DNA from: Chrysomallon squamiferum
Taxonomy: Eukaryota > Mollusca > Gastropoda > Neomphalida > Peltospiridae
NCBI GenBank assembly: GCA_012295275.1
Contig: CM022677.1
Span: 14,241,332-14,305,331 of the forward strand
Direction: 5' to 3'
Length of the DNA stretch: 64,000 nucleotides
Shown here: piece after piece, positions 1 through 55,357 of the stretch
How the letters are laid out: the number at the start of each line of letters is the position of its first letter
How positions within the stretch are numbered: position 1 is the first letter of the stretch
Program-made: the position numbers and the translations under genes
Notes under the pieces: model-generated
What the model was told of the DNA's origin: nothing
What the model saw: only the letters and a program-made list of their open reading frames with translations
Database searches by the model: none

Positions 1-72
1 TAAAGTCTATGTTGTTTTGTATATCTATATCGGAAGAGATAAAAGTAACAACTGAACGTTTTTGAACGTCTC

Positions 73-78
73 TTTATT
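73..78 (-). promoter_or_regulatory. poly(A) signal of the left capsid transcript
   Basis: The minus strand reads AATAAA about 115 bases after the capsid stop codon. It is the only canonical signal between the stop and the window edge, so it is the likely 3' end of the left viral cassette transcript. Direct copies of TGACGTAATAC lie just inside it (about 97-119) and are unexplained. Confidence 0.5.
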
Positions 79-191
79 TATAACGTTAAAAATATGACGT
101 AATACATATGACGTAATACGGTGTACGTGACAAATTAAACGTAATATTTTGAACAGACTATTTACTGTATTCATACGCGTACAAATATTAT

Positions 192-2312
192 TTACAATGG
201 ATATGACCAATCAAAAGCATTACCCATAACTTCCAAGGTTCTATCTCCATATGCACCATGTACTGGCCATAATTGTCTACGTCTATTTCGTCTTTTATTC
301 CAATTATCCCATACTGGTGCAAAACATCGCATTTGCCATGTTTTCTGAATTCTATCTTTATATTTAGCTTCATCTTCATCTAAAAATTGATCTTGATCTG
401 TATGTTTTATGTTATCTTTATTTCCCATTGGTCTTGTTTCATCTGGTTTATATATTAAACCTTGCATATTACCTGGACAGCCCCCTAACCCTATTGGAAT
501 GTATTTAGGACACATTCCCGTTCTAACTATAAATTCGATCTCACTATAATATGTAATTTGAATATTTGCATGATAATTAAAAAATAATGTATTACCACCA
601 CTTGTTTTCTCAATATCAGGATATAAACCTATCAGAAATATAGGCGGTCTATTACATTGATATGTACGTCTATGTGAACCGTCTTTACAAGCGTCTACGT
701 TAGGATTGTTAGCATTATTATGCATAACACCTTGGCTACTTAATTTAGTACCACCATCATCAACCATAGATGGTGCACCAAGTACATTTGATGCCTTATT
801 TTGAAAACATGCTGTATAATGTATACGTCTGTATTGATGATTAAAATAACAACAGATCGCTGTGCCCATAGGATGTTCTGTAGAATTAGTTAATATTATA
901 TCCTGTGTTGGCCATACTTCTAAATTACCTTTATTTTCATTAGCACATTGATATTTCGTTTTTTGACATAATCCAGATACATCCGTAAAATTAACTCTGT
1001 GTGATGTTTCAGATGGAAATAATACAGTAGGTGAATCTTTACATGTATAATCTAATGCGAAACCACCAGCACTAATAACCGTCTCACGATACCCATCATG
1101 TTTTTTCATATCATAAATATAATTAGGAGACTCAGCAGTGTATTTTAATCCGTCTTTCTTCCATGCATGATTTAATATTTGCATGGCCATATCACTAGGT
1201 AAATATAATTTGCGATCAGGCTGAATAGGTATACTTCTATTGCTTACACTGTCCATGCATTCTTCATCTCTAAAATAATGATTATGAGATAAATTTAAAT
1301 TTTTTTCTGGAAGACCATAATCATTATTTATATCTGTAAATGTCCAGACTCTAGAATTAGGAGGTGCCATTACAGGGACCTCATTAGGATCAGCTTTATT
1401 ATTATTCAACACATGAATAATCATATTATTAATGTTAAAACCTATTTTTTTCACTCTATAGCCCATAAAATCATCAGGTAAATTCCAATCATCCGGTTTA
1501 GTACTGGCAGCTTTATACCAATATGGTATAATATGTCCTCCGTGATTGAATGTAAATTCACAAACATTTGGGTCACCAATAGCTTTTTTCCAATTTACAT
1601 TATCTGAATTATTATCTAATACTTGCATTTCAGCCTTTCTGGTTTTAGTAAAATTAATAGTACTAGTAAACGTTCGTTTAAATGTTTTTTTGATCGTTAT
1701 GTAACGTGGATCAGCAGCTTTAGTTGTTCCACCAAAACCTTGATATAAAACATTATTACCAGTTGCAGATGCCATAGGTGCACCTTCTACGGCTTCGCTC
1801 CCTCCAGTATCAGTAACTTCTTCATTCATTATGGAATCCGGTTCCATAACAGATTCTTGAGGTTGTAAATATGTACCTTTAGCATTTGATCTGTCCAGGA
1901 CATCTTGTGATACCGTAGTAGATAACTGATTATTATTTGGAACCTTCGCATCAGATCGACCTGACGGTTCATCTGAATGTCTTTTCATAGTTGATTTATT
2001 TTGATCTCCGGATGTGTCGTATATATCTCCTGGTTGTTCCGAGTTGTCGTAGAATAAAGGGGTCCCGAAAGGGTCGTCTTCGTCCGAATCTTCAATAGAG
2101 TTATAGTTTTGCCCAATATTTTGAATTGCCTGATAGAAATCGTTATTCGGAATTTGTATATTTGGATACTGACGTCTGATCTGAAGCCACTTTTCTTGTC
2201 GTTTTGAATAGGGGACATTTAGATCTCCTAATATATTAAACGCTTTTGACTTTGCAATAGCCCAAAGTCGAGTGACTTCTTTCTTCGTCAAAAGTCTTTT
2301 TCCTTTTGTCAT
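192..2312 (-). CDS. Parvovirus-like capsid protein, left copy, intact
   Basis: An uninterrupted 706-codon ORF on the minus strand. The N-terminal ~130 residues are charged and variable. A Gly/Ala-rich linker follows (TDTGGSEAVEGAP, then NNVLYQGFGGTT). The C-terminal ~500 residues look like a parvovirus jelly-roll structural protein, ending with a block containing RPPIFLIGLYPD, FFNYHANIQITYYSEIEF and a Gly-rich tail. I see neither the Ca-binding YxGxG nor the HDxxY catalytic motif of a parvoviral phospholipase A2. The start was chosen because ATG overlaps the stop of the upstream ORF as ATGA and the right-hand copy uses the same start. Against the partial copy on the plus strand, the core is about 90% identical with differences mostly at third codon positions, so divergence happened under protein-level selection. 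There is no stop or frameshift, so integration may be recent, the ORF may be under host selection, or this could be exogenous viral sequence. Family assignment (Parvoviridae, Densovirinae-like) is inferred from motif shape and genome layout. Confidence 0.75.
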   Translation of the reverse strand: MTKGKRLLTKKEVTRLWAIAKSKAFNILGDLNVPYSKRQEKWLQIRRQYPNIQIPNNDFYQAIQNIGQNYNSIEDSDEDDPFGTPLFYDNSEQPGDIYDTSGDQNKSTMKRHSDEPSGRSDAKVPNNNQLSTTVSQDVLDRSNAKGTYLQPQESVMEPDSIMNEEVTDTGGSEAVEGAPMASATGNNVLYQGFGGTTKAADPRYITIKKTFKRTFTSTINFTKTRKAEMQVLDNNSDNVNWKKAIGDPNVCEFTFNHGGHIIPYWYKAASTKPDDWNLPDDFMGYRVKKIGFNINNMIIHVLNNNKADPNEVPVMAPPNSRVWTFTDINNDYGLPEKNLNLSHNHYFRDEECMDSVSNRSIPIQPDRKLYLPSDMAMQILNHAWKKDGLKYTAESPNYIYDMKKHDGYRETVISAGGFALDYTCKDSPTVLFPSETSHRVNFTDVSGLCQKTKYQCANENKGNLEVWPTQDIILTNSTEHPMGTAICCYFNHQYRRIHYTACFQNKASNVLGAPSMVDDGGTKLSSQGVMHNNANNPNVDACKDGSHRRTYQCNRPPIFLIGLYPDIEKTSGGNTLFFNYHANIQITYYSEIEFIVRTGMCPKYIPIGLGGCPGNMQGLIYKPDETRPMGNKDNIKHTDQDQFLDEDEAKYKDRIQKTWQMRCFAPVWDNWNKRRNRRRQLWPVHGAYGDRTLEVMGNAFDWSYPL
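1985..2218 (-). CDS. Nested +1-frame ORF inside the left capsid gene
   Basis: A 77-codon ATG-to-stop ORF that starts 94 bases into the capsid gene in the +1 frame. The right-hand copy has an ORF at exactly the same offset and of exactly the same length (3667-3900). By eye 54 of 77 residues match between the copies (about 70%), against about 43 of 78 (55%) for the capsid frame over the same bases. In the second half of the overlap the capsid frame is nearly randomised while this frame is still aligned. The product is basic, begins MSPI, and has an Ile/Lys-rich centre (QFKILGKTITLLKIRTKTTL); no domain was recognised. Position and style recall small overprinted proteins of other parvoviruses, such as the AAV assembly-activating protein, but no homology is claimed. 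Leaky scanning from the capsid AUG would be a possible expression route. Confidence 0.6.
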   Translation of the reverse strand: MSPIQNDKKSGFRSDVSIQIYKFRITISIRQFKILGKTITLLKIRTKTTLSGPLYSTTTRNNQEIYTTHPEIKINQL

Positions 2313-2674
2313 GAAATCGGTATACGATTATATATATATGATACGTTTTCGTCTTCCTCAGCCTCTAATTGGCTACGTTCAATTGATGTGACGTTATTAT
2401 CTATATCTTTTCCTTCAGGTTTAATATAATTCCCTAATTCTCGTACTGCCTCTTGAATCTGATTTTTTGTATAATCAGAAATTCCTTCAACAGCAGATTC
2501 AACAATAGATGTTCCTATATTTATAGCAGGATCTAATAAAACACTATCAGCTCCTATTACTTCTGTAATGGCTGGTGCTGTAGATTCTAATATTGCTGAT
2601 GTAGCAATTTCTACAGAGGCATCGAATGCGTATTCGATTATTTCAGTTGCAATTAAACCTAATGCAGTGAACAT
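2309..2674 (-). CDS. Small hydrophobic viral ORF upstream of the left capsid gene
   Basis: A 121-codon ORF beginning MFTALGLIATEIIEYAFDAS. The first ~70 residues are Ala/Ile/Val/Glu-rich and likely form amphipathic or membrane-active helices; the last ~40 are acidic and polar. It ends with TGA overlapping the capsid ATG (ATGA), which suggests coupled termination-reinitiation or a spliced/leaky arrangement. The counterpart at 3208-3576 is 122 codons and about two-thirds identical, so the protein is real. In composition it resembles membrane-interacting minor capsid proteins of other small DNA viruses. That is an analogy only. Given the apparent lack of phospholipase A2 in the capsid gene, a membrane-penetration role is a reasonable hypothesis. 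Confidence 0.65.
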   Translation of the reverse strand: MFTALGLIATEIIEYAFDASVEIATSAILESTAPAITEVIGADSVLLDPAINIGTSIVESAVEGISDYTKNQIQEAVRELGNYIKPEGKDIDNNVTSIERSQLEAEEDENVSYIYNRIPIS

Positions 2675-2779
2675 GCTATCATAACAAATAAATAAGTATA
2701 AATGATATAAATGTATATGTGTTATATTATATATAATAAATACAGGAAGTGACGTAGAATGTCACGTAACATGATAATT
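2675..2779 (-). promoter_or_regulatory. Putative promoter of the left viral cassette
   Basis: The 105 bases between the hairpin and the first ATG are very AT-rich, with several TATA-like tracts on the minus strand (about 2700-2745). A GTGAC-GTAGAAT-GTCAC inverted repeat lies next to the hairpin base (about 2749-2765). Its placement mirrors the TATA-containing segment on the other side of the hairpin, but the two spacers are not similar in sequence. Confidence 0.4.
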
Positions 2780-3039
2780 GGGACCTGATAGATCCCAACC
2801 CAACTCTTGTTTATTATTGAAAAAACAATGTATAACACGAATGGTTTTTGGTTTTTGTACTGAAAGCCAATATGTACTTTTAACTCGAAGGTGACTAGCT
2901 CCTTCGGGCGTAGCCCGAGCCCTACGGTCATAAGTTAAAAGTACATATTGGCTTTCAAGGCCAAAAACCAAAAACCATTCGTGTTATACATTGTTTTTTC
3001 AATAATAAACAAGAGTTGGGTTGGGATCTATCATGTCCC
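2780..3039. repeat. T-shaped hairpin, parvovirus-telomere-like inverted repeat
   Basis: Left arm 2780-2885 and right arm 2933-3039 are near-perfect reverse complements over about 105 bp. The only differences seen are a GTAC/AGGCC swap about 25 bp from the tip and one base near the outer end. The 47-nt tip (2886-2932) holds two small stem-loops: CGAAGG (2886-2891) with CCTTCG (2901-2906), and CGTAG (2909-2913) with CTACG (2922-2926). An alternative CGGGC-GTA-GCCCG stem overlaps both. A long stem with two short side arms is the layout of parvoviral terminal repeats. The tip is GC-rich compared with its surroundings. It sits exactly between the two divergent cassettes, as in a head-to-head dimer joined through one telomere. 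Confidence 0.75.
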
Positions 3040-3207
3040 TAATTCACACCCACGTGGTCTATTGCGTTATAGTCACGTGATCTCTCGCGCTATAGTACGA
3101 CTGTTATATTTAAATATAGTATATGATGTCATATCCGGTATAAATGCAGATATCGTTATGTTTTCAAATATTAACATCATTCCATCATAAACGTTCGATG
3201 AGATAGC
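3040..3207 (+). promoter_or_regulatory. Putative promoter of the right viral cassette
   Basis: Between the hairpin and the first ATG lie two CACGTG E-boxes (3051-3056 and 3074-3079) and a TATAAAT box (3139-3145). The TATA position predicts initiation near 3170, about 40 bases before the ATG at 3208. This resembles the compact hairpin-proximal promoters of ambisense densoviruses. Confidence 0.5.
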
Positions 3208-3576
3208 ATGTTCACTGCGTTAGGCATTATAGCTACAGAGATAATAGAGTACGCATTTGATGCATCAGTTGGTTTAGCTACAAACGCTATATTAGAATCT
3301 ACAGCTCCTGCCATATCTGAATTGATTGGTGCAGAAAGTGCCATATTAGAACCAGCTACAGCTATTGGTCAATCTATTGTAGAAGCTTCAGTGGAAGGAA
3401 TTTCTACTTATACAAAGAATCAAATAGAAGAAGCTTTGAATCAATTTGATGAATTCGTATCAACCGATACTGGTAAAGACATTGACGAAAACGTTACACC
3501 AGCCGAACGTCATTTGTTAGAAGAAGAGGAAGGAGAAAACGTTACATATTTAAACAGACATAATCAGAGTTCATGA
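3208..3576 (+). CDS. Small hydrophobic viral ORF upstream of the right capsid gene
   Basis: A 122-codon ORF, the diverged counterpart of 2309-2674 on the minus strand. It shares the N-terminus (MFTALG, then IATEIIEYAFDASV), the Ala/Ile-rich helical first half and the acidic C-terminal third, with roughly two-thirds of residues identical. Its TGA stop overlaps the capsid ATG (3573) as ATGA, exactly as in the left copy. It is intact although the capsid gene downstream is truncated. Confidence 0.65.
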   Translation: MFTALGIIATEIIEYAFDASVGLATNAILESTAPAISELIGAESAILEPATAIGQSIVEASVEGISTYTKNQIEEALNQFDEFVSTDTGKDIDENVTPAERHLLEEEEGENVTYLNRHNQSS

Positions 3577-4859
3577 TTAAAGGAAAACAATTATTAAGCA
3601 GAAAGGCTATAAATAGACTTTGGGCTGCTGCTAAAGCTACGTTGTTCGACAAGCTAGCTGATCAAAATGTCCCCTATAGAGAAAGACAGCAACAATGGTT
3701 ACAGGTCAGACGTCAGTATCCAAATATACAAGTTCCGAATAGAAATTTCTATCAGGCAATTCAAAATCTTTGGCAAAACTATAACGCTATTGAAGATTCG
3801 GACGAAGACGACGTTAAAGACCCCGCTATACTCGCAAATGATGTACAACGACAAAGAGATCAGCAATTCTCGTCCGGATATAGTGATAAACAAGCTATGA
3901 AGAGACCATCTGATGAACCGTACGGTGGTAGCTCTGCTAAAAGATCTAATAACAGACAGTTATCCAACGTAGTTTCGCAAGATGTATTGGAACAATCGAA
4001 TTCCAGAGGTACATATTTACAACCAGAAGAATCTGTTATGGAACCTGATTCCATTGCAAATGAAGAAGTCACAGACACCGGAGGGAGCGAAGCTGTCGAA
4101 GGTGCTCCAATGGCATCGGCTACTGGTAATAATGTTCTATATCAAGGTTTTGGTGGAACTACCAAAGGAACGGATCCTAGATACATTACGATTAAAAAGA
4201 CATTTAAACGAACATTTACAAGTACTATTAATTTTACCAAAAATAGAAAAGCTGAAATGAAGGTATTAGACAATAATTCAGATAATGTTAATTGGAAAAA
4301 AGCTATAGGTGATCCTAATGTATGCGAATTTACGTTTAATCACGGAGGACATATTATACCATATTGGTACAAAGCCGCCGTTACTAAACCAGAAGATTGG
4401 AATTTACCTGATAATTTCATGGGATACAGAATCAAAAGAATAGGTTTCAATATAAATAATATGCTTATTCACGTTTTAAATAATAACAAAGCAGATCCTA
4501 ACGAAGTACCTGTTATGGCACCACCAAACGCTCGTGTTTGGACGTTTACCGATATAAATAACGATTATGGGTTACCAGAAAAAAATTTAATGTTGTCTCA
4601 TAATTATTATTTTAAAGACGAAGACTGTATGGACGATGTAAGCAATAGAAGTATCCCTGTTCAACCTGATAGAAAATTGTATTTACCAAGTGATATGGCA
4701 ATGCAAATGTTAAATCATGCTTGGACAGGTGACGGAGTAGAATATACAGCTCTTTCTCCAAATTACATATACGATATGAAAAAACACGATGGTTATCGTG
4801 AAACTGTTATTAGCTGTATCTTGACGCATTTTGGATGCAGGGAAAGGAATCAGAGATGA
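3573..4859 (+). pseudogene. Parvovirus-like capsid gene, right copy, 3'-truncated
   Basis: The ORF is 428 codons long, but only the first ~414 match the left capsid protein. Homology stops at about 4815, after GYRETVIS, and the last 14 codons are unrelated sequence running into a GATA microsatellite. About 290 C-terminal capsid residues, including the final strand block, are therefore missing. The N-terminal 80 residues are only ~70% identical to the left copy, a block of ~30 residues after EDSDEDD is almost unalignable, and the core is ~90% identical. A bipartite nuclear-localisation-like pattern (KR, 11 residues, KR) is present near residue 111; the left copy has lost its second basic pair. 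No internal stop is seen before the break. It is probably a viral integrant cut at its junction with host DNA. Confidence 0.7.
3667..3900 (+). CDS. Nested +1-frame ORF inside the right capsid gene
   Basis: A 77-codon ORF in the +1 frame, 94 bases after the capsid ATG, the same offset and length as the nested ORF in the left copy. It begins MSPIEKD and keeps the segments RSDVSIQIYKFRI and GKTITLLKIRTKTTL. Differences between the copies are concentrated at positions that are silent or conservative in this frame but change the capsid frame, most clearly after codon ~50. The function is unknown. Confidence 0.6.
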   Translation: MSPIEKDSNNGYRSDVSIQIYKFRIEISIRQFKIFGKTITLLKIRTKTTLKTPLYSQMMYNDKEISNSRPDIVINKL

Positions 4860-4939
4860 TTTGGTGCATTTTTGTTCAACGGATAGATAGACCAAACAAG
4901 AGACCTTCATATAGATTAAAAGACGATATATAGATATAT

Positions 4940-4986
4940 ATGGAAACAGAGATAGATTGATAGATAGATGGAAATAGAGATAGATT

Positions 4987-5064
<78 letters not shown>
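4940..5064. repeat. (GATA)n microsatellite
   Basis: A nearly pure TAGA/GATA tract beginning about 80 bases after the end of the viral ORF. The Tyr/Leu/Ser-repeat ORF on the opposite strand is a translation artefact. Confidence 0.95.
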
Positions 5065-5109
5065 AAATGAAAAAGGTTGATATGACCCTGTCATAGTTTG
5101 TATTAAAAA

Positions 5110-5353
5110 AAGATCAGCCTGACCTCGCGTCCACTCATCTTTTCCTTTGTAATATATCTTACATCTCATACAGTTTTAGAAAAGATTATTAATCTGTACG
5201 TTTCTCTACATTCTTAGCTTCTGCTAAAACGCGAGAAGTCGCAATATTAACGTCATAAATTATATTACACTATAGATTAAAATCATAATTTCAAGAACAT
5301 AGATTATAGAGGATACCTGTATTTTGGGAAATATAGAGCGTACTTTCAGTTTT

Positions 5354-5406
<53 letters not shown>

Positions 5407-5700
5407 TATAAATAATAGAAGAAAACTGAAATGATATTCCGTTATGTAAAGAAAGCTATCGCGTTTATTTTGTAAAACGAGCGGAGTTTACACTATAAAT
5501 CCAATAATTATAAACAAGTAAAAATAAAGTGTTATTATTAATTAAGGATACCGCTGTTTACAGGAATAAATCATATAACATCACATCATTATAAGCAAGT
5601 AAAAATAAGGTTTTACTTAAGGATACCGCTACTTACACTGATAATTTTATAGACTAAGAACGATATTTCATCCCCAACTTTCGAGGTTATAGTGAAAATG
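5110..5700 (+). repeat. Dispersed AT-rich repeat, copy 1
   Basis: This ~590-bp segment matches 55078-55690 in the same orientation. Shared blocks include the CATCTCATACAGTTTTAGA start, GATTATTAATCTGTAC, ACCTGTATTTTGGGAAATA, an internal (ATT)n tract (here 5355-5406), AGAAGAAAA then ATGATATTCC, and two short AAGGATACCGCT-type repeats near the end. It has no coding capacity, so it is probably a non-autonomous element or its tail. The second copy directly follows a minisatellite; here that side has been replaced by the viral cassette and GATA tract. Confidence 0.65.
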
Positions 5701-7019
5701 TGATAACGTATGATATTAATGTGATATTTCCCCATCAGAATTTACTACATTAATCTGGTCAGAATAATTTCATGTAGGGAGATATGTAAATTGTGTCGTG
5801 GAATGTCATGTTACTGCTGTCATAAAACATTCTGACACTGAAATATGCACAGTTAATTTTCAGTAATATCAACAGTAATAAATACAGTATTCATCTAACA
5901 CTTCACGCGTTTCTGTATAGTCTTATTATTGATAATAAAATAACTTAATATAATAAACTATAATTCTTCAGTATACGATAAGAAGGATATTAATTTGGAA
6001 AAAATTAAAGATGTGTTTTTCAGTGTACTGGGTTAATATTACAGCTTCACTTTTACTATCAGTATATTGAGTTATATACCTAATAGAATTATAGAAGATT
6101 CTTTTTTTATTCTTTTAATAACTGTACACTAATTGTACAAGAATAAAAAATAAAATTTTGACAAACTCAGCGTAATATTAATATTAATGTCTAAAGAAGA
6201 TATTCATGTTTATATGTGAAGCGGATATTCAACTTTTATGCTACGTTAACTTTACAAAATTATTCAAATTATCCAAATATAACGTTAATGTTATAATTTT
6301 ATAATAAAATATTTCCATTTTCTGAGGCCTAGAATTGTTTTTCATCACAACAAACATTAATGTTTTTTCTCTCAAACTCAGTTTTGTCGTATAAACGGTC
6401 GTGGTGTTAGCTGCTACTTTCTTTTTGTTTCAGGTTTCTGAATAAAGACCAAACATTAAATCTAAGCAAGGGTTCTTTTTAATATTATCACCGAAAAATA
6501 TAGGAGGAAAATGTGTTTCAACATTTGTGTGTGTGTGTGTGTGTGTGTGTTTGTGTGTGTGGGTATGTGTGCGAATGTGAAAAAGGACTCAGTATTTTTA
6601 TTGAAATGTACGCAAACTAATAAAAACATGTTCCTTATATCAAGTCAGGTATTTTGTTTTATGATTTACAGTCAGCGATCACGTGGGTTAAGAGAATTTA
6701 CATTATCCTCACTTGGAGAAATCACAGTTGTTTTCACTCGAGTGTTTAAAATAATCATGTCTGTGAAAAAGGATACATTTTCAGTGATAGGTTTGATGCT
6801 GAAGTGTGCACTTGTTTAACCAACACAGGATGTTTTTCTACCGAGTTCAAGATTAATAAAGTGTAATGAAAATTATAAACAACATTCATAAATTTCTTCA
6901 CTGGAATATTTAGATTACTGTTACAGAAATGTGTTCAAAGTTTTCGGTAGAGATGTGTATTGCATTGGTAACAGTTCATTCAGATTTATCTTCATTATTT
7001 TAATTTCTATTAATGTAAA
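5701..7019. other. AT-rich non-coding stretch
   Basis: No gene recognised. It contains a short GT microsatellite (about 6524-6560). The 102-codon plus-strand ORF running through it starts in the GT tract and lacks any recognisable domain. Confidence 0.6.
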
Positions 7020-7545
7020 TCAAAACCGGCGTTATCTATGTTAATGTCACCGTCATTAGCGTCGTAACGGCGTTGTTCTCAACGTTCTGGTGTACTTCTC
7101 GCTATCCTTTTACTTTTTATTATTCATATTATAATTTTCTTGCGTTCAAATGCTATACTTAAAATGTATTATTACTATTTCTATTTACATCACCGTAATT
7201 GCTGTCGTTGATCCTAGCTTTGTTGCTGTACTTCTAATTATTGTTTTGCGATTTTTATTAGTCATTACTCGTATTTTCTGAGCTATTAAAATATATTACT
7301 GAACTTTGTATTAATGTCGCCGTCGTTGCCTTCGTACCGGATTATTCCTAACGTAGTTATTAGAGTGCTTCTCATTGTTCTTCCTTGCTTTTTATCACCT
7401 AGTATTATTATTTCTGAGCGTGCGCATCCTGTATTAAAATATATTATTAATATATCTTTATTATTACTGTGAACGTTGGCGACGCTGCTGTTGAAACTGG
7501 CGCTGTCCTTCACGGCTTGGTGTACTTCTCATTATTCTTTTTAGC
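7020..7545. repeat. ~150-bp degenerate minisatellite, locus 1
   Basis: Three to four degenerate units, each with a CpG-containing core like GCCGTCGTTGCC...ACCGG, a GTTCCTAACGTT block, TGGTGTACTTCTCATTATTC, then TTTTTATTA and TAAAATATATTATT. Related arrays occur near 43.1-43.5 kb and 53.8-55.1 kb. Confidence 0.6.
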
Positions 7546-8587: not shown

Positions 8588-10510
8588 CTAGATGATGATG
8601 TTATATCTAGATTTGTCTAGATTTGTCATTTCTTGCATTGTCTGACTGTTGTTCAAATACTTTTTCTGGTTGTGTGTAACATGGCTCTGTTTCATCTCCA
8701 ACTTGTTCACCACCCTGATGTCTTTGTCATCTTCCAGAGGACAAAGTTTGTGTAACCTTCCATCTTGATCCAGCATTTCAGTGACTCAGTACAGTTGACT
8801 TCTCCAGTGATCTTGAATGCTTTTTCCTGCCCTGGATGTTTACAAACATCGGATGAAATGGTGAAAATCCAGTTGTAGAATGAGTTGCAGCATTGTAGTA
8901 ATAAACAAGCTGAGGTATGTACTCAGGCCATTTCTTCTTACATTCATTGGAAATTGTGCGGAGCAGATCATGCAGTGTCCTGTTGAATCTCTCACACTGA
9001 CCATTTCCTTCAGGGTGATATGGAGTGGTTCTGCTCTTTTTCACTCCATAAAGAGTACATAAACTACTTGTTACCTCCAATTCTAAGTTTCTACTTGGTC
9101 AGAGTGTAATCGTTCTGGAGCTCCATGTCACTGAATCCACCTGAGTATCTTTGCTGTGGTTTCAGCCGTCTGGTCTTTCCCAGTGAACTTGGTAAAATCA
9201 TCAGTCATGACTAAGACATTTTCTTTGCCACGTGAAGATGGCGCCAACACTGTCAAATCCATGGCTACAATCTCAACAGGTCTCGTAGCAATACGATGTC
9301 CCAAAGGTAGTTTCAGTTTGAATTGTGGCAGTTTAGTCATTTCACACCTTTCACACTCTTTACACCATTGTCCCACATCTTTGTGCATTGCAGGCCAGTT
9401 ACATCTTCTAATAGGACTCATCCTTCTTTCAAAATCTTGGTGTCCTTCCTGATTATGTAAACTATGCAGAACTTTCTCCTTCATTATTCCTGGCAATTTG
9501 CTTCATTCTTCCAAAGTTGGGGTCCTTTACGTTTCTGTAAAGTTCACAGTTTTCAAGAAATAATCTGTCTCATCGTCAGATTAGTGTTAACAACCCAGAT
9601 TCTTTTTAAATTCCTCTCAGCTCTGAACTGTTTCCTACCTCTAGCCATGTCTCAGCAGTCTCTTTATTAACTTCACCAAGAGATCAAGTTTGAGCTTCGA
9701 CTGGCAGAAGAAATAACCACTACTCGACCATCTTGCTCTTGAGATAGAACAGCTCCCAAACCCTGAAAACCTGCATCAATCTCATCAATGAAAATCAGAG
9801 TAGCCTAAACTTGGAATTGTAGTCAGCTAAACTGTTGATGCATTGAAAGCATCGTCACAAGACTGATCCCTGCATTCCTGAAAAGCTTTCCGAGTTTCAG
9901 GAACCTTTCTGACAAGTTTTCCTTTCTTTTTCTTGCCACCACCTATCAGTGAATGCAGGGATGTGGCTATGTTGGTAAAACTCATTGGACCTTCGATAGT
10001 AGCTGGTAAATCCAAGAAATGACCTCAGTTCTCTTGTTGGTATTTTCCAGTCTTTGACAGCTGAAACCTGATCAGAAATACCCGTCTCTGAAACAACATG
10101 GCCAAGATACTTAACCTCCTTTTTAAGCAAATGACACGTGTAGCCTACCAAATACCATTTCTAGCCTTTGGTCCATTTCGTCGAAGGTGCGTCCAAACAC
10201 AAGAATGACTTCTAGATATACTATCAGAGACTGAAGGCTGTCTTCTCCCAGGCAAACCTGCATTAGCCATTAGGCTACTCTGATTAAACAAACCCATGGA
10301 AATCCTGGTATATTAAAAAAAAAGAAAAACAAAAAAGGACGAACCAGCGCGAAATGCAGTCTTGGGAATGTCTTCCTCTTTCTCTTCACTGAAGAAATCC
10401 ATGTGCTAGATCGATGGAAGAGAAATACTTGGCGCCTTTCAATGTCTCAAGTGTTTCATCTACACGGGGAAGTGGATGCGCATCTTTGACAGGTTTTGCA
10501 TTTAAGAGGC
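8588..10510 (-). pseudogene. Ty3/gypsy-type LTR retrotransposon pol, decayed
   Basis: Pol domains are readable on the minus strand in the usual gypsy order but broken across frames. Reverse transcriptase is at about 10510-10398 (DAHPLPRVDETL, then AKYFSSIDLAHGF, motif A), continuing at 10151-9897 with the YLGHVVSETGI and ELRSFLGFTSYYR blocks. RNase H-like sequence is at about 9800-9690 (GLGAVLSQEQDGR). The integrase HHCC zinc finger is at 9496-9330 (HNQEGH...CKECERC), and the integrase core runs through about 9128-9300 and 9080-8778 (VEIVAMDL; PYHPEGNGQCERFNRTL; final Asn-rich TAATHSTTGFSP-type block). A C-terminal tail (CPLEDDKDIRVVNKLE) is at 8776-8588. Stops and frameshifts separate the pieces and no gag or LTRs were found. 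The element is dead. Confidence 0.85.
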
Positions 10511-30084: not shown

Positions 30085-30978
30085 TTACACAAATCCTAGT
30101 AAACGACCTATCAGAAGACAAAATTCAATTAGAACAAATAAGATTTTCCACAACAGAGAACTAAATATACGACTAAAATACGTAAATATACGACCGATAT
30201 ACGCAAATATACGTCTGATGAATCCAGCTGCAGAATGTCTTCTGACTCTTTTGACTCTGAGAGGTGCCAATGTGTACATCTCGCAGTTTCCATCTCTTAA
30301 GTTGTACACGATGGCGGTGAATCTTGCAGAGCAAACTGGACAATTTCTTCTGCTTCTAGACCACCTCTCCAAACAGCTGAAACAAAATTCATGTAAACAC
30401 GAGTCTGCATGACACTTATCTAAAAATGCTTCTGAACACAAAGAACAAGTAGGTGACTTATCTGATTCAGGCTGTTGTGTTGATTCAGCAGTGCTGGGTG
30501 ATGGTGATGTTGACATCCCTGGTCTTTCTCCACATGCTGCTTTTACAGGGTCACGTTCGGAAATCTTTCGCCCTTTTGGAGGCTTCTCTGGGCACCCATC
30601 ATCCTGTGCTTTCCGTTTCCTAGATGTTGATGTCCCTGGTCCTCTACGTGATGTTTCTCCAGGGTCACGTTCGGAAATCTTTCGCCCTTTTGGAAGCTTC
30701 TTCGGGCACCCATCATCCTGTGCTTTCCGTTTCCTAGATGTTGATGTCCCTGGTCCTCTACGTGATGTTTCTCCAGGGTCACGTTCGGAAATCTTTCGCC
30801 CTTTTGGAAGCTTCTTCGGGCACCCATCATCCTGCGCTTTCCGTTTCCTAGATGTTGTTGTCCCTGGTCCTCTACGTGATGTTTCTCCACGTTCGGAAAT
30901 CTTTCGCCCTTTTGGAGGCTTTTCAGGGCACTCATCATCCTGTGCTTTCCTTTTCTTGGACGCTCTTACTTTTCCCAT
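30085..30978 (-). CDS. RING-finger protein with 38-residue repeats and a hydrophobic tail
   Basis: A single coding exon of 297 residues counted from the Met at 30978. This start was chosen because an acceptor (TTATTGCAG) lies just upstream, making the extra 19 N-terminal codons intronic. Residues ~9-143 are four tandem copies of a basic module (RKRKAQDDGCPKKLPKGRKI and following). Three are separated by 114 bp and the most N-terminal copy is 9 bp shorter. Residues 178-216 form a C3HC4 RING (CSLC, HEFCFSC, CPVC) with a following RFTAIVYNL, closest in feel to TOPORS-like RINGs, so E3 ubiquitin ligase activity is likely. The C-terminus is basic, then strongly hydrophobic (residues ~274-294), suggesting a tail anchor. 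The plus-strand ORF 30491-30988 is a shadow of the repeats. Confidence 0.75.
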   Translation of the reverse strand: MGKVRASKKRKAQDDECPEKPPKGRKISERGETSRRGPGTTTSRKRKAQDDGCPKKLPKGRKISERDPGETSRRGPGTSTSRKRKAQDDGCPKKLPKGRKISERDPGETSRRGPGTSTSRKRKAQDDGCPEKPPKGRKISERDPVKAACGERPGMSTSPSPSTAESTQQPESDKSPTCSLCSEAFLDKCHADSCLHEFCFSCLERWSRSRRNCPVCSARFTAIVYNLRDGNCEMYTLAPLRVKRVRRHSAAGFIRRIFAYIGRIFTYFSRIFSSLLWKILFVLIEFCLLIGRLLGFV

Positions 30979-31307
30979 TTCGTATTGATAACTGCAATAA
31001 CATTGTAGGAGAAAACAAAATTTTATATAATCCAAAAATATCTATTAATTTTATTTCTGTTGTTAGAATTATTTCTATTTTTATTTCATTTTTTAATGGC
31101 AGTACATTTTTTTCACTTATACGTTTTATCTGTTTGTTTTACTAACGTTAATCTTTGCACAAGGATTTTACAACCAGGGCTAATAGCTTTGCATGAATTT
31201 ATTACATAATGTGAGTTTCGCGTCTAAAATGACAGGTGTACAGGGTTTAAATTGTTTGTGGATGGTGATTTTAAAAATACATTCAAAATAAATTAAAATC
31301 TATTATC

Positions 31308-32083: not shown

Positions 32084-35000
32084 ATACGTAAACTGCACGG
32101 CCACCATTTCGTTCGTAATCCGTTTTTTTTTTTTTTTCTTTAAAAGCGCTTGGTAATTTAAATTTTCGACGTCGAAATTTCTAATTAGTCCAATTAAGTA
32201 AAAATGCTTGATGTTTCAACCAAGTGATAACTAGCGGTTGTCAATCAGTCAATTCAAAATGCATTCACTCTCACTGACAGTTCACTGCCTCATTTACTAA
32301 GTATAAGTAATTTCAGATACTTCTAATATCGTTGCAGATGCAGGCGTCGTCTCCAGTCACATAATCTTTCAGCTATTATTTGCTTTTCTTCACATTTAGT
32401 TTTCTTCAACAGAAACTGTACGAGACAATTTCCTGATATGTTATTTCTAAACGTTCTGGTATTTGTTTCGTGCTCGTGACGTAAAACACAACTAGCACTA
32501 GCAAATGCTGGAGGTTTATCGAATAGACAGCTACGCTTCCGAAACATCGCCGTCGCAAGTAGACGACGAAATGACGAAAAGTTACGCATTACGTACATTA
32601 AGAGAAAGACATCATCAGTACTTTGCTTGTATTTGGTTGTGCTGGCGTTTCACGTTCTGCTAGCACTAGCAAATGCTGGGAGAGTATCGGATGAGCTTTA
32701 CTTCACAACTCTTCTACGCGCATCTTTCGAAACGTAATCGCAGGCATATTTTTTCTCAGTATTCGCCACGTGCTTGTGTGTAAACTGAGCTAGCACTAGC
32801 AAATGCTGGGAGGTAATCCTGGGGTGATTCTTCGCGTTTTGGGGACATCCGACCATCTGGTTGAAAGCCTTTCCTTTTTAGCTAAATTATGCTCAAACCG
32901 CTACCAGATCACAGAAGACACCACTCAAATTTATTTACGACCATCACGTCCTTAATACTTTGCTAGTATTTCTTGGTGCTGGCGTTTCACGTCTTGTTAG
33001 CACTAGCAAATGCTGGGAGAGTATAGTACGAAATGCACTTCAACAACGATACCTTTTGAGCGAAGTAATGCTGTTTCCGCAAACAGATCACAAAAGCAGT
33101 CAGATTTATTTAGGACGACTACATCGTTAGCACTCTGCTAGCATTTCTTTGTGCTGGTGTGTCACAAAGTACTAGCACTAGCAAATGCTGGGAGAGTATA
33201 GTACGAAATGCACTTCAACAACGATACGTAAACTGCACGGCCATCATTTCGTTCGTAATCCGTTTTTTTTTCTTCTTTAAAAGCGCTTGGTAATTTGAAT
33301 TTTCGACGTCGAAATTTCTAATTAGTCCAATTAAGTAAACAATGCTTGATGTTTCAACCAAGTGATAACTAGCGGTTGTCAATGAGTCAATTCAAAATTC
33401 ATTCACTCTCACTGTCAGCTCACTGCCTCATTTACGAAGTATAAGTAATTTCAGATACTTCTAATATCGTTGCAGATGCAGGCGTCGTCTCCAGTCACAT
33501 CAGCTTTCAGGTATTATTTGCTTTTCTTCACATTTAGTTTTCTTCAACAGAAACTGTACGAGACAATTTCCTGATATGTTATTTCTAAACGTTCTGGTAT
33601 TTGTTTCGTGCTCGTGACGTAAAACACAACTAGCACTAGCAAATGCTGGAGGTTTATCGAATAGACAGCTACGCTTCCGAAACATCGCCGTCGCAAGTAG
33701 ACGACGAAATGACGAAAAGTTACGCATTACGTACATTAAGAGAAAGACATCATCAGTACTTTGCTTGTATTTGGTTGTGCTGGCGTTTCACGTTCTGCTA
33801 GCACTAGCAAATGCTGGGAGAGTATCGGATGAGCTTTACTTCACAACTCTTCTACGCGCATCTTTCGAAACGTAATCGCAGGCATATTTTTTCTCAGTAT
33901 TCGCCACGTGCTTGTGTGTAAACTGAGCTAGCACTAGCAAATGCTGGGAGGTAATCCTGCGGTGATTCTTCGCGTTTTGGGACATCCGACCATCTGGTTG
34001 AAAGCCTTTCCTTTTTAGCTAAATTATGCTCAAACCGCTACCAGATCACAGAAGACACCACTCAAATTTATTTACGACCATCACGTCCTTAATACTTTGC
34101 TAGTATTTCTTGGTGCTGGCGTTTCACGTCTTGTTAGCACTAGCAAATGCTGGGAGAGTATAGTACGAAATGCACTTCAACAACGATACCTTTTGAGCGA
34201 AGTAATGCTGTTTCCGCAAACAGATCACAAAAGCAGTCAGATTTATTTAGGACGACTACATCGTTAGCACTCTGCTAGCATTTCTTTGTGCTGGTGTGTC
34301 ACAAAGTACTAGCACTAGCAAATGCTGGGAGAGTATAGTACGAAATGCACTTCAACAACGATACGTAAACTGCACGGCCATCATTTCGTTCGTAATCCGT
34401 TTTTTTTCTTCTTTAAAAGCGCTTGGTAATTTGAATTTTCGACGTCGAAATTTCTAATTAGTCCAATTAAGTAAACAATGCTTGATGTTTCAACCAAGTG
34501 ATAACTAGCGGTTGTCAATGAGTCAATTCAAAATTCATTCACTCTCACTGTCAGCTCACTGCCTCATTTACGAAGTATAAGTAATTTCAGATACTTCTAA
34601 TATCGTTGCAGATGCAGGCGTCGTCTCCAGTCACATCAGCTTTCAGGTATTATTTGCTTTTCTTCACATTTAGTTTTCTTCAACAGAAACTGTACGAGAC
34701 AATTTCCTGATATGTTATTTCTAAACGTTCTGGTATTTGTTTCGTGCTCGTGACGTAAAACACAACTAGCACTAGCAAATGCTGGAGGTTTATCGAATAG
34801 ACAGCTACGCTTCCGAAACATCGCCGTCGCAAGTAGTAGACGACGAAATGACGAAAAGTTACGCATTACGTACATTAAGAGAAAGACATCATCAGTACTT
34901 TGTTTGTATTTGGTTGTGCTGGCGTTTCACGTTCTGCTAGCACTAGCAAATGCTGGGAGAGTATCGGATGAGCTTTACTTCACAACTCTTCTACGCGCAT

Positions 35001-38000
35001 CTTTCGAAACGTAATCGCAGGCATATTTTTTTCTCAGTATTCGCCACGTGCTTGTGTGTAAACTGAGCTAGCACTAGCAAATGCTGGGAGGTAATCCTGC
35101 GGTGATTCTTCGCGTTTTTGGGACATCCGACCATCTGGTTGAAAGCCTTTCCTTTTTAGCTAAATTATGCTCAAACCGCTACCAGATCACAGAAGACACC
35201 ACTCAAATTTATTTACGACCATCACGTCCTTAATACTTTGCTAGTATTTCTTGGTGCTGGCGTTTCACGTCTTGTTAGCACTAGCAAATGCTGGGAGAGT
35301 ATAGTACGAAATGCACTTCAACAACGATACCTTTTGAGCGAAGTAATGCTGTTTCCGCAAACAGATCACAAAAGCAGTCAGATTTATTTAGGACGACTAC
35401 ATCGTTAGCACTCTGCTAGCATTTCTTTGTGCTGGTGTGTCACAAAGTACTAGCACTAGCAAATGCTGGGAGAGTATAGTACGAAATGCACTTCAACAAC
35501 GATACGTAAACTGCACGGCCATCATTTCGTTCGTAATCCGTTTTTTTTTTTTTTCTTTAAAAGCGCTTGGTAATTTGAATTTTCGACGTCGAAATTTCTA
35601 ATTAGTCCAATTAAGTAAACAATGCTTGATGTTTCAACCAAGTGATAACTAGCGGTTGTCAATGAGTCAATTCAAAATTCATTCACTCTCACTGTCAGCT
35701 CACTGCCTCATTTACGAAGTATAAGTAATTTCAGATACTTCTAATATCGTTGCAGATGCAGGCGTCGTCTCCAGTCACATCAGCTTTCAGGTATTATTTG
35801 CTTTTCTTCACATTTAGTTTTCTTCAACAGAAACTGTACGAGACAATTTCCTGATATGTTATTTCTAAACGTTCTGGTATTTGTTTCGTGCTCGTGACGT
35901 AAAACACAACTAGCACTAGCAAATGCTGGAGGTTTATCGAATAGACAGCTACGCTTCCGAAACATCGCCGTCGCAAGTAGACGACGAAATGACGAAAAGT
36001 TACGCATTACGTACATTAAGAGAAAGACATCATCAGTACTTTGCTTGTATTTGGTTGTGCTGGCGTTTCACGTTCTGCTAGCACTAGCAAATGCTGGGAG
36101 AGTATCGGATGAGCTTTACTTCACAACTCTTCTACGCGCATCTTTCGAAACGTAATCGCAGGCATATTTTTCTCAGTATTCGCCACGTGCTTGTGTGTAA
36201 ACTGAGCTAGCACTAGCAAATGCTGGGAGGTAATCCTGCGGTGATTCTTCGCGTTTTTGGGACATCCGACCATCTGGTTGAAAGCCTTTCCTTTTTAGCT
36301 AAATTATGCTCAAACCGCTACCAGATCACAGAAGACACCACTCAAATTTATTTACGACCATCACGTCCTTAATACTTTGCTAGTATTTCTTGGTGCTGGC
36401 GTTTCACGTCTTGTTAGCACTAGCAAATGCTGGGAGAGTATAGTACGAAATGCACTTCAACAACGATACCTTTTGAGCGAAGTAATGCTGTTTCCGCAAA
36501 CAGATCACAAAAGCAGTCAGATTTATTTAGGACGACTACATCGTTAGCACTCTGCTAGCATTTCTTTGTGCTGGTGTGTCACAAAGTACTAGCACTAGCA
36601 AATGCTGGGAGAGTATAGTACGAAATGCACTTCAACAACGATACGTAAACTGCACGGCCATCATTTCGTTCGTAATCCGTTTTTTTTTTCTTCTTTAAAA
36701 GCGCTTGGTAATTTGAATTTTCGACGTCGAAATTTCTAATTAGTCCAATTAAGTAAACAATGCTTGATGTTTCAACCAAGTGATAACTAGCGGTTGTCAA
36801 TGAGTCAATTCAAAATTCATTCACTCTCACTGTCAGCTCACTGCTGCCTCATTTACGAAGTATAAGTAATTTCAGATACTTCTAATATCGTTGCAGATGC
36901 AGGCGTCGTCTCCAGTCACATCAGCTTTCAGGTATTATTTGCTTTTCTTCACATTTAGTTTTCTTCAACAGAAACTGTACGAGACAATTTCCTGATATGT
37001 TATTTCTAAACGTTCTGGTATTTGTTTCGTGCTCGTGACGTAAAACACAACTAGCACTAGCAAATGCTGGAGGTTTATCGAATAGACAGCTACGCTTCCG
37101 AAACATCGCCGTCGCAAGTAGACGACGAAATGACGAAAAGTTACGCATTACGTACATTAAGAGAAAGACATCATCAGTACTTTGCTTGTATTTGGTTGTG
37201 CTGGCGTTTCACGTTCTGCTAGCACTAGCAAATGCTGGGAGAGTATCGGATGAGCTTTACTTCACAACTCTTCTACGCGCATCTTTCGAAACGTAATCGC
37301 AGGCATTTTTTTCTCAGTATTCGCCACGCTTGTGCTTGTGTGTAAACTGAGCTAGCACTAGCAAATGCTGGGAGGTAATCCTGCGGTGATTCTTCGCGTT
37401 TTTGGGACATCCGACCATCTGGTTGAAAGCCTTTCCTTTTTAGCTAAATTATGCTCAAACCGCTACCAGATCACAGAAGACACCACTCAAATTTATTTAC
37501 GACCATCACGTCCTTAATACTTTGCTAGTATTTCTTGGTGCTGGCGTTTCACGTCTTGTTAGCACTAGCAAATGCTGGGAGAGTATAGTACGAAATGCAC
37601 TTCAACAACGATACCTTTTGAGCGAAGTAATGCTGTTTCCGCAAACAGATCACAAAAGCAGTCAGATTTATTTAGGACGACTACATCGTTAGCACTCTGC
37701 TAGCATTTCTTTGTGCTGGTGTGTCACAAAGTACTAGCACTAGCAAATGCTGGGAGAGTATAGTACGAAATGCACTTCAACAACGATACGTAAACTGCAC
37801 GGCCATCATTTCGTTCGTAATCCGTTTTTTTTTTCTTCTTTAAAAGCGCTTGGTAATTTGAATTTTCGACGTCGAAATTTCTAATTAGTCCAATTAAGTA
37901 AACAATGCTTGATGTTTCAACCAAGTGATAACTAGCGGTTGTCAATGAGTCAATTCAAAATTCATTCACTCTCACTGTCAGCTCACTGCCTCATTTACGA

Positions 38001-41000
38001 AGTATAAGTAATTTCAGATACTTCTAATATCGTTGCAGATGCAGGCGTCGTCTCCAGTCACATCAGCTTTCAGGTATTATTTGCTTTTCTTCACATTTAG
38101 TTTTCTTCAACAGAAACTGTACGAGACAATTTCCTGATATGTTATTTCTAAACGTTCTGGTATTTGTTTCGTGCTCGTGACGTAAAACACAACTAGCACT
38201 AGCAAATGCTGGAGGTTTATCGAATAGACAGCTACGCTTCCGAAACATCGCCGTCGCAAGTAGACGACGAAATGACGAAAAGTTACGCATTACGTACATT
38301 AAGAGAAAGACATCATCAGTACTTTGCTTGTATTTGGTTGTGCTGGCGTTTCACGTTCTGCTAGCACTAGCAAATGCTGGGAGAGTATCGGATGAGCTTT
38401 ACTTCACAACTCTTCTACGCGCATCTTTCGAAACGTAATCGCAGGCATATTTTTTCTCAGTATTCGCCACGTGCTTGTGTGTAAACTGAGCTAGCACTAG
38501 CAAATGCTGGGAGGTAATCCTGCGGTGATTCTTCGCGTTTTTGGGACATCCGACCATCTGGTTGAAAGCCTTTCCTTTTTAGCTAAATTATGCTCAAACC
38601 GCTACCAGATCACAGAAGACACCACTCAAATTTATTTACGACCATCACGTCCTTAATACTTTGCTAGTATTTCTTGGTGCTGGCGTTTCACGTCTTGTTA
38701 GCACTAGCAAATGCTGGGAGAGTATAGTACGAAATGCACTTCAACAACGATACCTTTTGAGCGAAGTAATGCTGTTTCCGCAAACAGATCACAAAAGCAG
38801 TCAGATTTATTTAGGACGACTACATCGTTAGCACTCTGCTAGCATTTCTTTGTGCTGGTGTGTCACAAAGTACTAGCACTAGCAAATGCTGGGAGAGTAT
38901 AGTACGAAATGCACTTCAACAACGATACGTAAACTGCACGGCCATCATTTCGTTCGTAATCCGTTTTTTTTCTTCTTTAAAAGCGCTTGGTAATTTGAAT
39001 TTTCGACGTCGAAATTTCTAATTAGTCCAATTAAGTAAACAATGCTTGATGTTTCAACCAAGTGATAACTAGCGGTTGTCAATGAGTCAATTCAAAATTC
39101 ATTCACTCTCACTGTCAGCTCACTGCCTCATTTACGAAGTATAAGTAATTTCAGATACTTCTAATATCGTTGCAGATGCAGGCGTCGTCTCCAGTCACAT
39201 CAGCTTTCAGGTATTATTTGCTTTTCTTCACATTTAGTTTTCTTCAACAGAAACTGTACGAGACAATTTCCTGATATGTTATTTCTAAACGTTCTGGTAT
39301 TTGTTTCGTGCTCGTGACGTAAAACACAACTAGCACTAGCAAATGCTGGAGGTTTATCGAATAGACAGCTACGCTTCCGAAACATCGCCGTCGCAAGTAG
39401 ACGACGAAATGACGAAAAGTTACGCATTACGTACATTAAGAGAAAGACATCATCAGTACTTTGCTTGTATTTGGTTGTGCTGGCGTTTCACGTTCTGCTA
39501 GCACTAGCAAATGCTGGGAGAGTATCGGATGAGCTTTACTTCACAACTCTTCTACGCGCATCTTTCGAAACGTAATCGCAGGCATATTTTTCTCAGTATT
39601 CGCCACGTGCTTGTGTGTAAACTGAGCTAGCACTAGCAAATGCTGGGAGGTAATCCTGCGGTGATTCTTCGCGTTTTTGGGACATCCGACCATCTGGTTG
39701 AAAGCCTTTCCTTTTTAGCTAAATTATGCTCAAACCGCTACCAGATCACAGAAGACACCACTCAAATTTATTTACGACCATCACGTCCTTAATACTTTGC
39801 TAGTATTTCTTGGTGCTGGCGTTTCACGTCTTGTTAGCACTAGCAAATGCTGGGAGAGTATAGTACGAAATGCACTTCAACAACGATACCTTTTGAGCGA
39901 AGTAATGCTGTTTCCGCAAACAGATCACAAAAGCAGTCAGATTTATTTAGGACGACTACATCGTTAGCACTCTGCTAGCATTTCTTTGTGCTGGTGTGTC
40001 ACAAAGTACTAGCACTAGCAAATGCTGGGAGAGTATAGTACGAAATGCACTTCAACAACGATACGTAAACTGCACGGCCATCATTTCGTTCGTAATCCGT
40101 TTTTTTTTTTTTCTTTAAAAGCGCTTGGTAATTTGAATTTTCGACGTCGAAATTTCTAATTAGTCCAATTAAGTAAACAATGCTTGATGTTTCAACCAAG
40201 TGATAACTAGCGGTTGTCAATGAGTCAATTCAAAATTCATTCACTCTCACTGTCAGCTCACTGCCTCATTTACGAAGTATAAGTAATTTCAGATACTTCT
40301 AATATCGTTGCAGATGCAGGCGTCGTCTCCAGTCACATCAGCTTTCAGGTATTATTTGCTTTTCTTCACATTTAGTTTTCTTCAACAGAAACTGTACGAG
40401 ACAATTTCCTGATATGTTATTTCTAAACGTTCTGGTATTTGTTTCGTGCTCGTGACGTAAAACACAACTAGCACTAGCAAATGCTGGAGGTTTATCGAAT
40501 AGACAGCTACGCTTCCGAAACATCGCCGTCGCAAGTAGACGACGAAATGACGAAAAGTTACGCATTACGTACATTAAGAGAAAGACATCATCAGTACTTT
40601 GCTTGTATTTGGTTGTGCTGGCGTTTCACGTTCTGCTAGCACTAGCAAATGCTGGGAGAGTATCGGATGAGCTTTACTTCACAACTCTTCTACGCGCATC
40701 TTTCTAAACGTAATCGCAGGCATATTTTTTTCTCAGAATTCGCCACGTGCTTGTGTGTAAACTGAGCTAGCACTAGCAAATGCTGGGAGGTAATCCTGCG
40801 GTGATTCTTCGCGTTTTTGGGACATCCGACCATCTGGTTGAAAGCCTTTCCTTTTTAGCTAAATTATGCTCAAACCGCTACCAGATCACAGAAGACACCA
40901 CTCAAATTTATTTACGACCATCACGTCCTTAATACTTTGCTAGTATTTCTTGGTGCTGGCGTTTCACGTCTTGTTAGCACTAGCAAATGCTGGGAGAGTA

Positions 41001-41845
41001 TAGTACGAAATGCACTTCAACAACGATACCTTTTGAGCGAAGTAATGCTGTTTCCGCAAACAGATCACAAAAGCAGTCAGATTTATTTAGGACGACTACA
41101 TCGTTAGCACTCTGCTAGCATTTCTTTGTGCTGGTGTGTCACAAAGTACTAGCACTAGCAAATGCTGGGAGAGTATAGTACGAAATGCACTTCAACAACG
41201 ATACGTAAACTGCACGGCCATCATTTCGTTCGTAATCCGTTTTTTTTCTTCTTTAAAAGCGCTTGGTAATTTGAATTTTCGACGTCGAAATTTCTAATTA
41301 GTCCAATTAAGTAAACAATGCTTGATGTTTCAACCAAGTGATAACTAGCGGTTGTCAATGAGTCAATTCAAAATTCATTCACTCTCACTGTCAGCTCACT
41401 GCCTCATTTACGAAGTATAAGTAATTTCAGATACTTCTAATATCGTTGCAGATGCAGGCGTCGTCTCCAGTCACATCAGCTTTCAGGTATTATTTGCTTT
41501 TCTTCACATTTAGTTTTCTTCAACAGAAACTGTACGAGACAATTTCCTGATATGTTATTTCTAAACGTTCTGGTATTTGTTTCGTGCTCGTGACGTAAAA
41601 CACAACTAGCACTAGCAAATGCTGGAGGTTTATCGAATAGACAGCTACGCTTCCGAAACATCGCCGTCGCAAGTAGACGACGAAATGACGAAAAGTTACG
41701 CATTACGTACATTAAGAGAAAGACATCATCAGTACTTTGCTTGTATTTGGTTGTGCTGGCGTTTCACGTTCTGCTAGCACTAGCAAATGCTGGGAGAGTA
41801 TCGGATGAGCTTTACTTCACAACTCTTCTACGCGCATCTTGCGCA
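32082..41845 (+). repeat. Higher-order satellite array, 8.6 units of ~1.14 kb
   Basis: Using CGATACGTAAACTGCACGG as the phase mark, units start at 32082, 33222, 34359, 35500, 36639, 37784, 38923, 40059 and 41199, giving lengths of 1140, 1137, 1141, 1139, 1145, 1139, 1136 and 1140. The ninth is cut at about 41845. Units 2-8 are almost identical, differing mainly in one poly-T tract (about 8-13 T), small 1-9 base indels and rare substitutions. Unit 1 is the most divergent. Within a unit, two successive ~175-bp stretches (32868-33048 and 33049-33221 in unit 1) are clearly diverged copies of each other, and other parts share the same box and flanks, so the unit is a higher-order repeat of ancient monomers. 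The repeated 73-79-codon minus-strand ORFs are carried by repeat homogenisation and are not taken as genes. Confidence 0.95.
32492..33191 (+). repeat. Five 20-bp boxes in a satellite unit (unit 1 shown)
   Basis: CTAGCACTAGCAAATGCTGG starts at 32492, 32660, 32790, 32998 (first base T) and 33172, and recurs at the same places in every unit (next at 33630). Its left part extended by TG is palindromic (TGCTAG-CA-CTAGCA). Flanks differ more than the box itself: the preceding 30-40 bases keep only a loose GTGCTGGCGTTTCAC-like pattern. Confidence 0.85.
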
Positions 41846-55077: not shown

Positions 55078-55306
55078 TCTCGCGCCCACTGAACTTCTCC
55101 TTTATTACATCTCATACAGTTTTAGACAAGATTATTAATCTGTACCTTCTCAACATACTTACCTCCTATTAACGTCATAAATTATATATCACTACATATT
55201 AAAATGATAATTTCAAGTAAGAACATTGATTATAGAGAATACCTGTATTTTGGGAAATACAGAGCATAATATAGAGTTTACTTTAAATTTTTAAATTTTT
55301 ATTTTA

Positions 55307-55357
<51 letters not shown>

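Follow-up and report, generated by a model that had tools for sequence, protein, structure and literature searches.

Members of the Parvoviridae have linear genomes of about 4-6 kb with terminal hairpins, an NS1 with an HUH endonuclease and a superfamily 3 (SF3) helicase, and a jelly-roll VP that forms a T=1 capsid; NS usually either precedes VP on the same strand or lies on the strand opposite to it. The element described here lies at the start of a 64,000-nucleotide (nt) stretch of the Chrysomallon squamiferum genome (GenBank assembly GCA_012295275.1, contig CM022677.1, positions 14,241,332 to 14,305,331 of the forward strand; hereafter the window), in which one 269-nt hairpin (HP_c) sits between two diverged cassettes of three open reading frames (ORFs), L on the left and R on the right, each directed outward. 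In the portions of the literature drawn on here, NS occupies the left half of the genome and VP the right (PMC12297876); the Acheta domesticus segmented densovirus is given a 3332-nt vp segment, and its two segments carry identical telomeres at each pair of corresponding ends (PMC10267136); integrants of the Bemisia tabaci ambidensovirus are described as partial sequences (PMC12297876); and genomes of adeno-associated virus (AAV) are reported to join in unbiased orientation by processes stimulated by the terminal repeats (PMC2765622).

What the window shows is a joint within an array of endogenous parvoviruses; L and R probably (at a probability of about 0.84) represent different lineages that diverged as replicating viruses and were then joined via the telomere that both carry. 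This reading is drawn from sequence, namely from the unit structure, the NS1 match, the shared telomere, the divergence of L and R, the near-identity of R to a neighbouring unit (R') and the presence of further, similar joints. The array is a young, multi-lineage endogenous parvovirus array, and the virus is predicted to be a homotelomeric, one-strand parvovirus, with a VP carrying an overprinted ORF of 77 amino acids (aa) ahead of NS1. The lineage keeps its telomeres, its VP-before-NS1 order and an overprinted gene, together with a dozen open VP copies, and offers several naturally formed telomere-to-telomere joints linking diverged genomes, from which parvoviral joining and integration can be read in sequence.

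The elements resemble homotelomeric Parvoviridae in an NS1 with a Parvo_NS1 helicase match, a unit of about 5.5 kb, the same hairpin at both ends and compact, overlapping ORFs. They differ in a VP that precedes NS1 on the same strand (a differing organisational habit rather than a taxonomic criterion), in a VP with no recognisable sequence relative in Pfam or PDB, and in a putative N-terminal nuclease of NS1 that is recognised only by a motif seen by eye. The SF3 helicase is present in the element family, although the window's own NS1 copy is without that part. As far as the consulted description goes, the segmented densovirus of A. domesticus is alike in its VP-only DNA (about 3.1-3.3 kb) with terminal hairpins and in telomeres common to different molecules, whereas its NS lies on a segment of its own; here full units with VP and NS1 are common, those with VP alone may have arisen by deletion, and the mapped loci yielded no unit with NS alone. 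The B. tabaci integrants, as reported in the excerpt used, are likewise parvoviral DNA in an animal chromosome with a partial terminal repeat kept, in contrast to the whole units with both hairpins, the open VPs and the multi-lineage arrays found here. Concatemers of AAV joined through inverted terminal repeats are, in the portion of the report cited, experimental vector DNA, unlike a chromosomal array of diverged viruses. Regarding the DNA polymerase B of Bidnaviridae, the units of one mapped stretch (L112) contain no long ORF other than the small ORF, VP with its nested ORF, and NS1; no genome search with a polymerase model was made. The features new here are the VP-before-NS1 order, the VP-only units, the conserved overprinted ORF and a VP that is open more often than NS1.

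From left to right the locus consists of R' (-), a half hairpin (HP_b), L (-), the full hairpin HP_c and R (+) (Table 1), L having an open VP and a truncated NS1. The arms of HP_c, with 107 matches around a tip of 47 nt, form a complete palindrome, which fits a replicated or recombined telomere; a single 60-nt block is identical within the arms. Folding of the 331-nt stretch 2740-3070 gave -129 kcal/mol, compared with an average of -30.7 for shuffled sequences (z = -27; 0 of 100 shuffles folded as well). The initial annotation, which had described two three-ORF cassettes directed away from a common hairpin and called them parvovirus-like, was confirmed in its ORFs and its hairpin, and the second point is supported by NS1 of units in the same genome, which passes Pfam Parvo_NS1, and by hairpins at both unit ends. 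It had also pointed to the DNA left of position 1 as the place to look for NS1; the start codon was found 13 nt outside the window (L109:9988, L109 being the mapped stretch that holds R'), in a truncated copy, with R' also just left of the window. On the other side, the VP-like ORF of R runs from 3573 to 4859, to which point the cassette had been extended; homology bears this out as far as 4813, but the last residues lie in non-homologous flank. Between hairpin and small ORF the flanks of L and R have no detectable likeness (local score matched by 125 of 500 shuffles), and about 60 nt of the right flank are present again, inverted, at the other end of R'.

Table 1. Coordinates of the features at the joint (window positions unless prefixed L109)
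Feature	Position	Strand	Remarks
HP_a	L109:6189-6355		left of R'
HP_b	L109:9197-9332		between R' (-) and L (-)
Truncated NS1 of L	L109:9324-9988	-	
Unit L, VP stop to NS1 start	1..191	-	AATAAA at 78; 14-bp tandem repeat 92-119
Left VP (capsid-like)	192..2312	-	706 aa, open
Left nested ORF	1985..2218	-	77 aa, +1 frame of VP, overprinted
Left small ORF	2309..2674	-	121 aa; 4-nt overlap with VP start
Left 5' flank	2675..2775	-	TATA-like boxes 2733-2735
HP_c, shared telomere hairpin	2776..3044		arms 2776-2885 / 2933-3044; tip 2886-2932 with small side stems
Right 5' flank	3045..3207	+	two CACGTG-bearing 23-nt repeats (3051-3096); TATA box 3139
Right small ORF	3208..3576	+	122 aa
Right VP (R)	3573..4813	+	first ~413 codons only
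Right nested ORF	3667..3900	+	77 aa
Flank beyond cut-off VP of R	4814..5112		taken as host DNA; junction 4813/4814
Dispersed repeat	5113..5651		second copy at 55068-55685

Maps of 20 stretches fetched from the same genome (L109-L128) reveal the unit plan: hairpin, small ORF, VP, NS1 and hairpin, on one strand, with VP preceding NS1, in about 5.5 kb. L121 is a lone unit with a hairpin at each end (1872-7412, 5.54 kb), in agreement with the genome size and terminal hairpins of Parvoviridae although known here from chromosomal sequence; its terminal repeats are without mismatch over 154 nt, unlike further inward. Three NS ORFs of the genome matched Parvo_NS1 (PF01057) with E values of 2.9e-8, 1.5e-8 and 2.3e-8 (33.5 bits against a cut-off of 20 for the first), and NS1/Rep40/Rep68 chains of PDB were matched at E 2e-5 and weaker. 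No Pfam match to the HUH endonuclease domain was obtained for NS1; a THCH motif, a putative HUH endonuclease motif, was spotted by eye. In one of the three open NS1 frames (C13:13352375-13354552, -) the THCH stretch is replaced; this copy has probably lost its nuclease site, since the other two open copies differ from it there. The option raised by the initial annotation that one viral genome carries two structural units, here taken to flank a hairpin that is central or belongs to a circular form, deserves next to no credence: each cassette does have its own TATA box and the two have one complete palindrome in common, but every mapped unit carries one VP, L121 and the array units each hold one small ORF, VP and NS1 between hairpins, and head-to-head pairs are rarer than head-to-tail pairs (3 versus 14 joints, read by eye from the maps).

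The VPs of L and R are 67.5% identical over residues 1-80, 38% over 81-130, 84% over 131-180, 91.7% over 181-300 and 87.7% over 301-414. The earlier estimate of about 70% at the N-terminus and 90% in a core with mostly synonymous differences therefore stands, except for the hypervariable residues 81-130. The ratio of nonsynonymous to synonymous substitution (dN/dS) between the copies, a calculation the annotation had proposed, was obtained for VP over 1239 nt (dS 0.873, dN 0.143, ratio 0.164) and for the small ORF (0.17). Within the span of the nested ORF, codon positions 1/2/3 of the two VPs differ at 33/13/14 of 78 sites each, and downstream of it at 30/21/115 of 303-304 (chi-square 40); among the 12 open VP copies of the genome, variable columns number 48/25/31 of 78 in the nested span versus 30/17/67 of 78 over the next 234 nt. 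By this substitution pattern the nested 77-aa ORF is identified as a real, overprinted gene; in 11 of the 12 open copies it is open and sits at an unchanged offset, open length being weak evidence by itself. The small and nested ORFs probably encode structural or accessory proteins. A large protein search returned two relatives of VP from ENA contigs, P0001 (551 aa; 8418-base contig), which is 51% identical across 80% of VP, and P0002 (243 aa; 559,615-base contig), which is 49% identical across 36%; the protein search found no relative of the small ORF.

The assembly searched for further copies comprises 22 contigs (404.6 Mb), among them C13 (28.3 Mb); the counts are lower bounds, with rows representing pieces rather than copies, and the best 63 of 127 VP, 61 of 106 NS1 and 40 of 49 hairpin candidates were scored. 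VP gave at least 78 rows (61 on C13, 15 on C1, and one each on C2 and C8), of which 12 are open over the full length, NS1 at least 68 rows (61 on C13 and 7 on C1), three of them full length and open, and the hairpin at least 110 rows on C13, C1 and C2, palindromes being counted on both strands. Almost all VP and NS1 matches lie on C13 or within one array of C1. Among the best candidates, the hairpin rows of all three contigs adjoin VP or NS1 rows, with one exception at C13:2.476 Mb: a hairpin relative (74%, C13:2475898-2476149) away from the main C13 cluster, where the matches listed include neither a VP nor an NS1 row. The C8 stretch (L127, C8:4202000-4211999) has a solitary open VP-like ORF (3939-5735, -; 598 aa from GTG) whose identity to VP and to P0001 is 38-40%. 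Neither the hairpin nor the small ORF nor NS1 found a match in that 10-kb stretch, and the ORF may be a domesticated capsid gene or stem from a separate, divergent insertion.

The nearest relative of L among the matches listed lies on another contig, C1 (93% in VP); over longer alignments L is 85.8% identical to L125 (3709 nt) and 83.8% to L121 (3556 nt), both alignments stopping at L109:9334, beside HP_b. R', a sibling of R, lies a short way left of the window on the (-) strand and is broken by frame changes; R and R' are 99.3-99.4% identical over their common 1.88 kb. Together with a third R-type copy in L119 (12.73 Mb), they show 3/3/3 private substitutions in 1879 columns, plus five indel events, so that R is a recent arrival; the VPs of R and L119 have 0 synonymous and 5 nonsynonymous differences, which is compatible with no selection. 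R' and L119 are related by host segmental duplication, because the host flank (97.7%), the unit (99.2%) and a 203-nt NS1 piece (99.5%) are all common to both.

The L-R dS of 0.87, set beside low dN/dS at the viral level and the near-identical siblings of R, argues that L and R diverged prior to joining. The closest independent unit pairs have a VP dS of 0.24 (ratio 0.074) and an NS1 dS of 0.465 (ratio 0.048), low ratios that show divergence as viruses. A very old dimer that diverged within the host genome under selection, another proposal of the initial annotation, would agree with the low dN/dS of VP (0.164) and the open left VP, but is most improbable given hairpin arms and R-type copies that are nearly unchanged beside the L-R divergence, the location on C1 of L's nearest relative among the matches listed and the occurrence of R-type copies at three places.

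R' and L119, each measuring 3.14 kb, bounded by a hairpin on either side and lacking an NS1 of its own, raise the question of a bipartite virus, of which the VP-only units (including those on C1) would be one segment, L-R then being a monopartite genome joined to a VP segment via the common telomere. The comparable 3332-nt vp segment in the available account of the A. domesticus virus (PMC10267136) speaks for this; however, R' and L119 count once because they are copies by host duplication, no NS-only segment was identified in the mapped loci, and deletion of NS1 from a full unit is equally simple, which makes the bipartite form doubtful.

Joining of two related viruses through a common telomere, which the initial annotation had also put forward, is upheld by the unit maps and by the three head-to-head joints that the window and the 20 fetched loci contain, all between diverged units: 77.4% alike in the window, 73.9% in L120 and 73.4% in L122. 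Fold-back artefacts can arise at palindromes, but a fold-back from one template would yield identical halves, not halves 77% alike; with this joint type at three places on two contigs, and in a contig of 28.3 Mb, an assembly artefact is very unlikely. Measured head-to-tail neighbours are 89.6, 79.5, 93.3, 83.9 and 80.1% alike. Mean VP distance is 0.157 within arrays (7 pairs) and 0.187 between them (59 pairs), a difference short of significance (129 of 2000 label shuffles gave a value this low), so array neighbours are not demonstrably closer to each other than to other copies. Three VP-only units in L123-L124 (C1:44926000-44945999) gave 99.88% identity in each of two comparisons, one of which paired directly adjacent units, and are a recent local amplification next to diverged units. 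The units at C13:15.17 and C13:13.23 Mb have a VP dS of 0.24 and a saturated NS1 dS, so that VP and NS1 histories disagree and the units are probably mosaics via recombination between the two genes.

Both ends of L121, HP_a and HP_b show proviral ends in the hairpin tip or at most about 25 nt away, which fits the opening of a closed hairpin end. NS1 would nick the telomere and drive rolling-hairpin replication, and telomere-to-telomere joining could link co-infecting genomes before integration or an incoming genome to a resident provirus. For the HP_c joint itself, three routes are possible and not separable: a concatemer formed during co-infection, attachment to a provirus already in place, and copying by the host at a later time.

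Several points weigh against the overall reading. VP is without a convincing Pfam or PDB sequence match and without a match to any known capsid, and two structure models of it are unusable (mean predicted local distance difference test scores of 27.2 and 26.5), for which reasons its capsid label rests on context. The NS1 copy at this joint ends before the helicase. The viral part is unmarked by base composition, CpG observed/expected being 0.99 in 1-4813 and 0.10 to 1.22 in 4.8-kb windows of the remaining sequence. Finally, R may be a later host-made copy, given its closeness to R'. By that route R would have been absent from the integrated viral DNA, and host repair would later have copied 1.88 kb of R' into the hairpin beside L, by template switching between identical hairpins. 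R indeed breaks off abruptly inside VP, the 3/3/3 star makes it look no older than the host duplication by which R' reached 12.73 Mb along with the R'/L junction and 828 nt of flanking host DNA, and the C1 array shows local copying. On the other hand, diverged units are also linked head-to-head at two other loci, and integration of R-L-R in a single event, with the duplication shortly afterwards, would produce an identical star; host copying is accordingly rated possible but on the unlikely side.

Regarding retention, 11 of the 12 open VPs share their unit with an NS1 or a remnant of it, which is open in 3 cases and broken or truncated in 8, and no full-length open NS1 paired with a broken VP was found among the matches listed (sign test 8 versus 0, about 0.008; a guide only, the copies being related). 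Selection on VP, harm from NS1 and chance are possible causes of this excess, which makes host retention of capsid genes testable. Certain arrays place decayed next to open units. As a tentative and rather unlikely extension, resident proviral telomeres may be landing sites at which incoming relatives join by NS1 nicking or telomere recombination, so that arrays of diverged parvoviruses grow at few places and the host keeps capsid genes open as NS1 decays (partial domestication of VP); this is suggested by the 76 of 78 VP rows on C13 and C1, the mixture of open and decayed units, the joints and ends in hairpins, and the 8 versus 0 split.

Beyond the joint, window positions 4814-6000 gave no match within the 20 fetched loci. 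An integrase zinc-binding domain at 9128-9496 (-) probably belongs to a retroelement. A RING-finger protein is encoded at 30085-31035 (-), with 114-bp tandem repeats within the coding stretch, and at 32323-41763 one ORF is repeated nine times at a spacing of about 1.14 kb in a satellite-like array.

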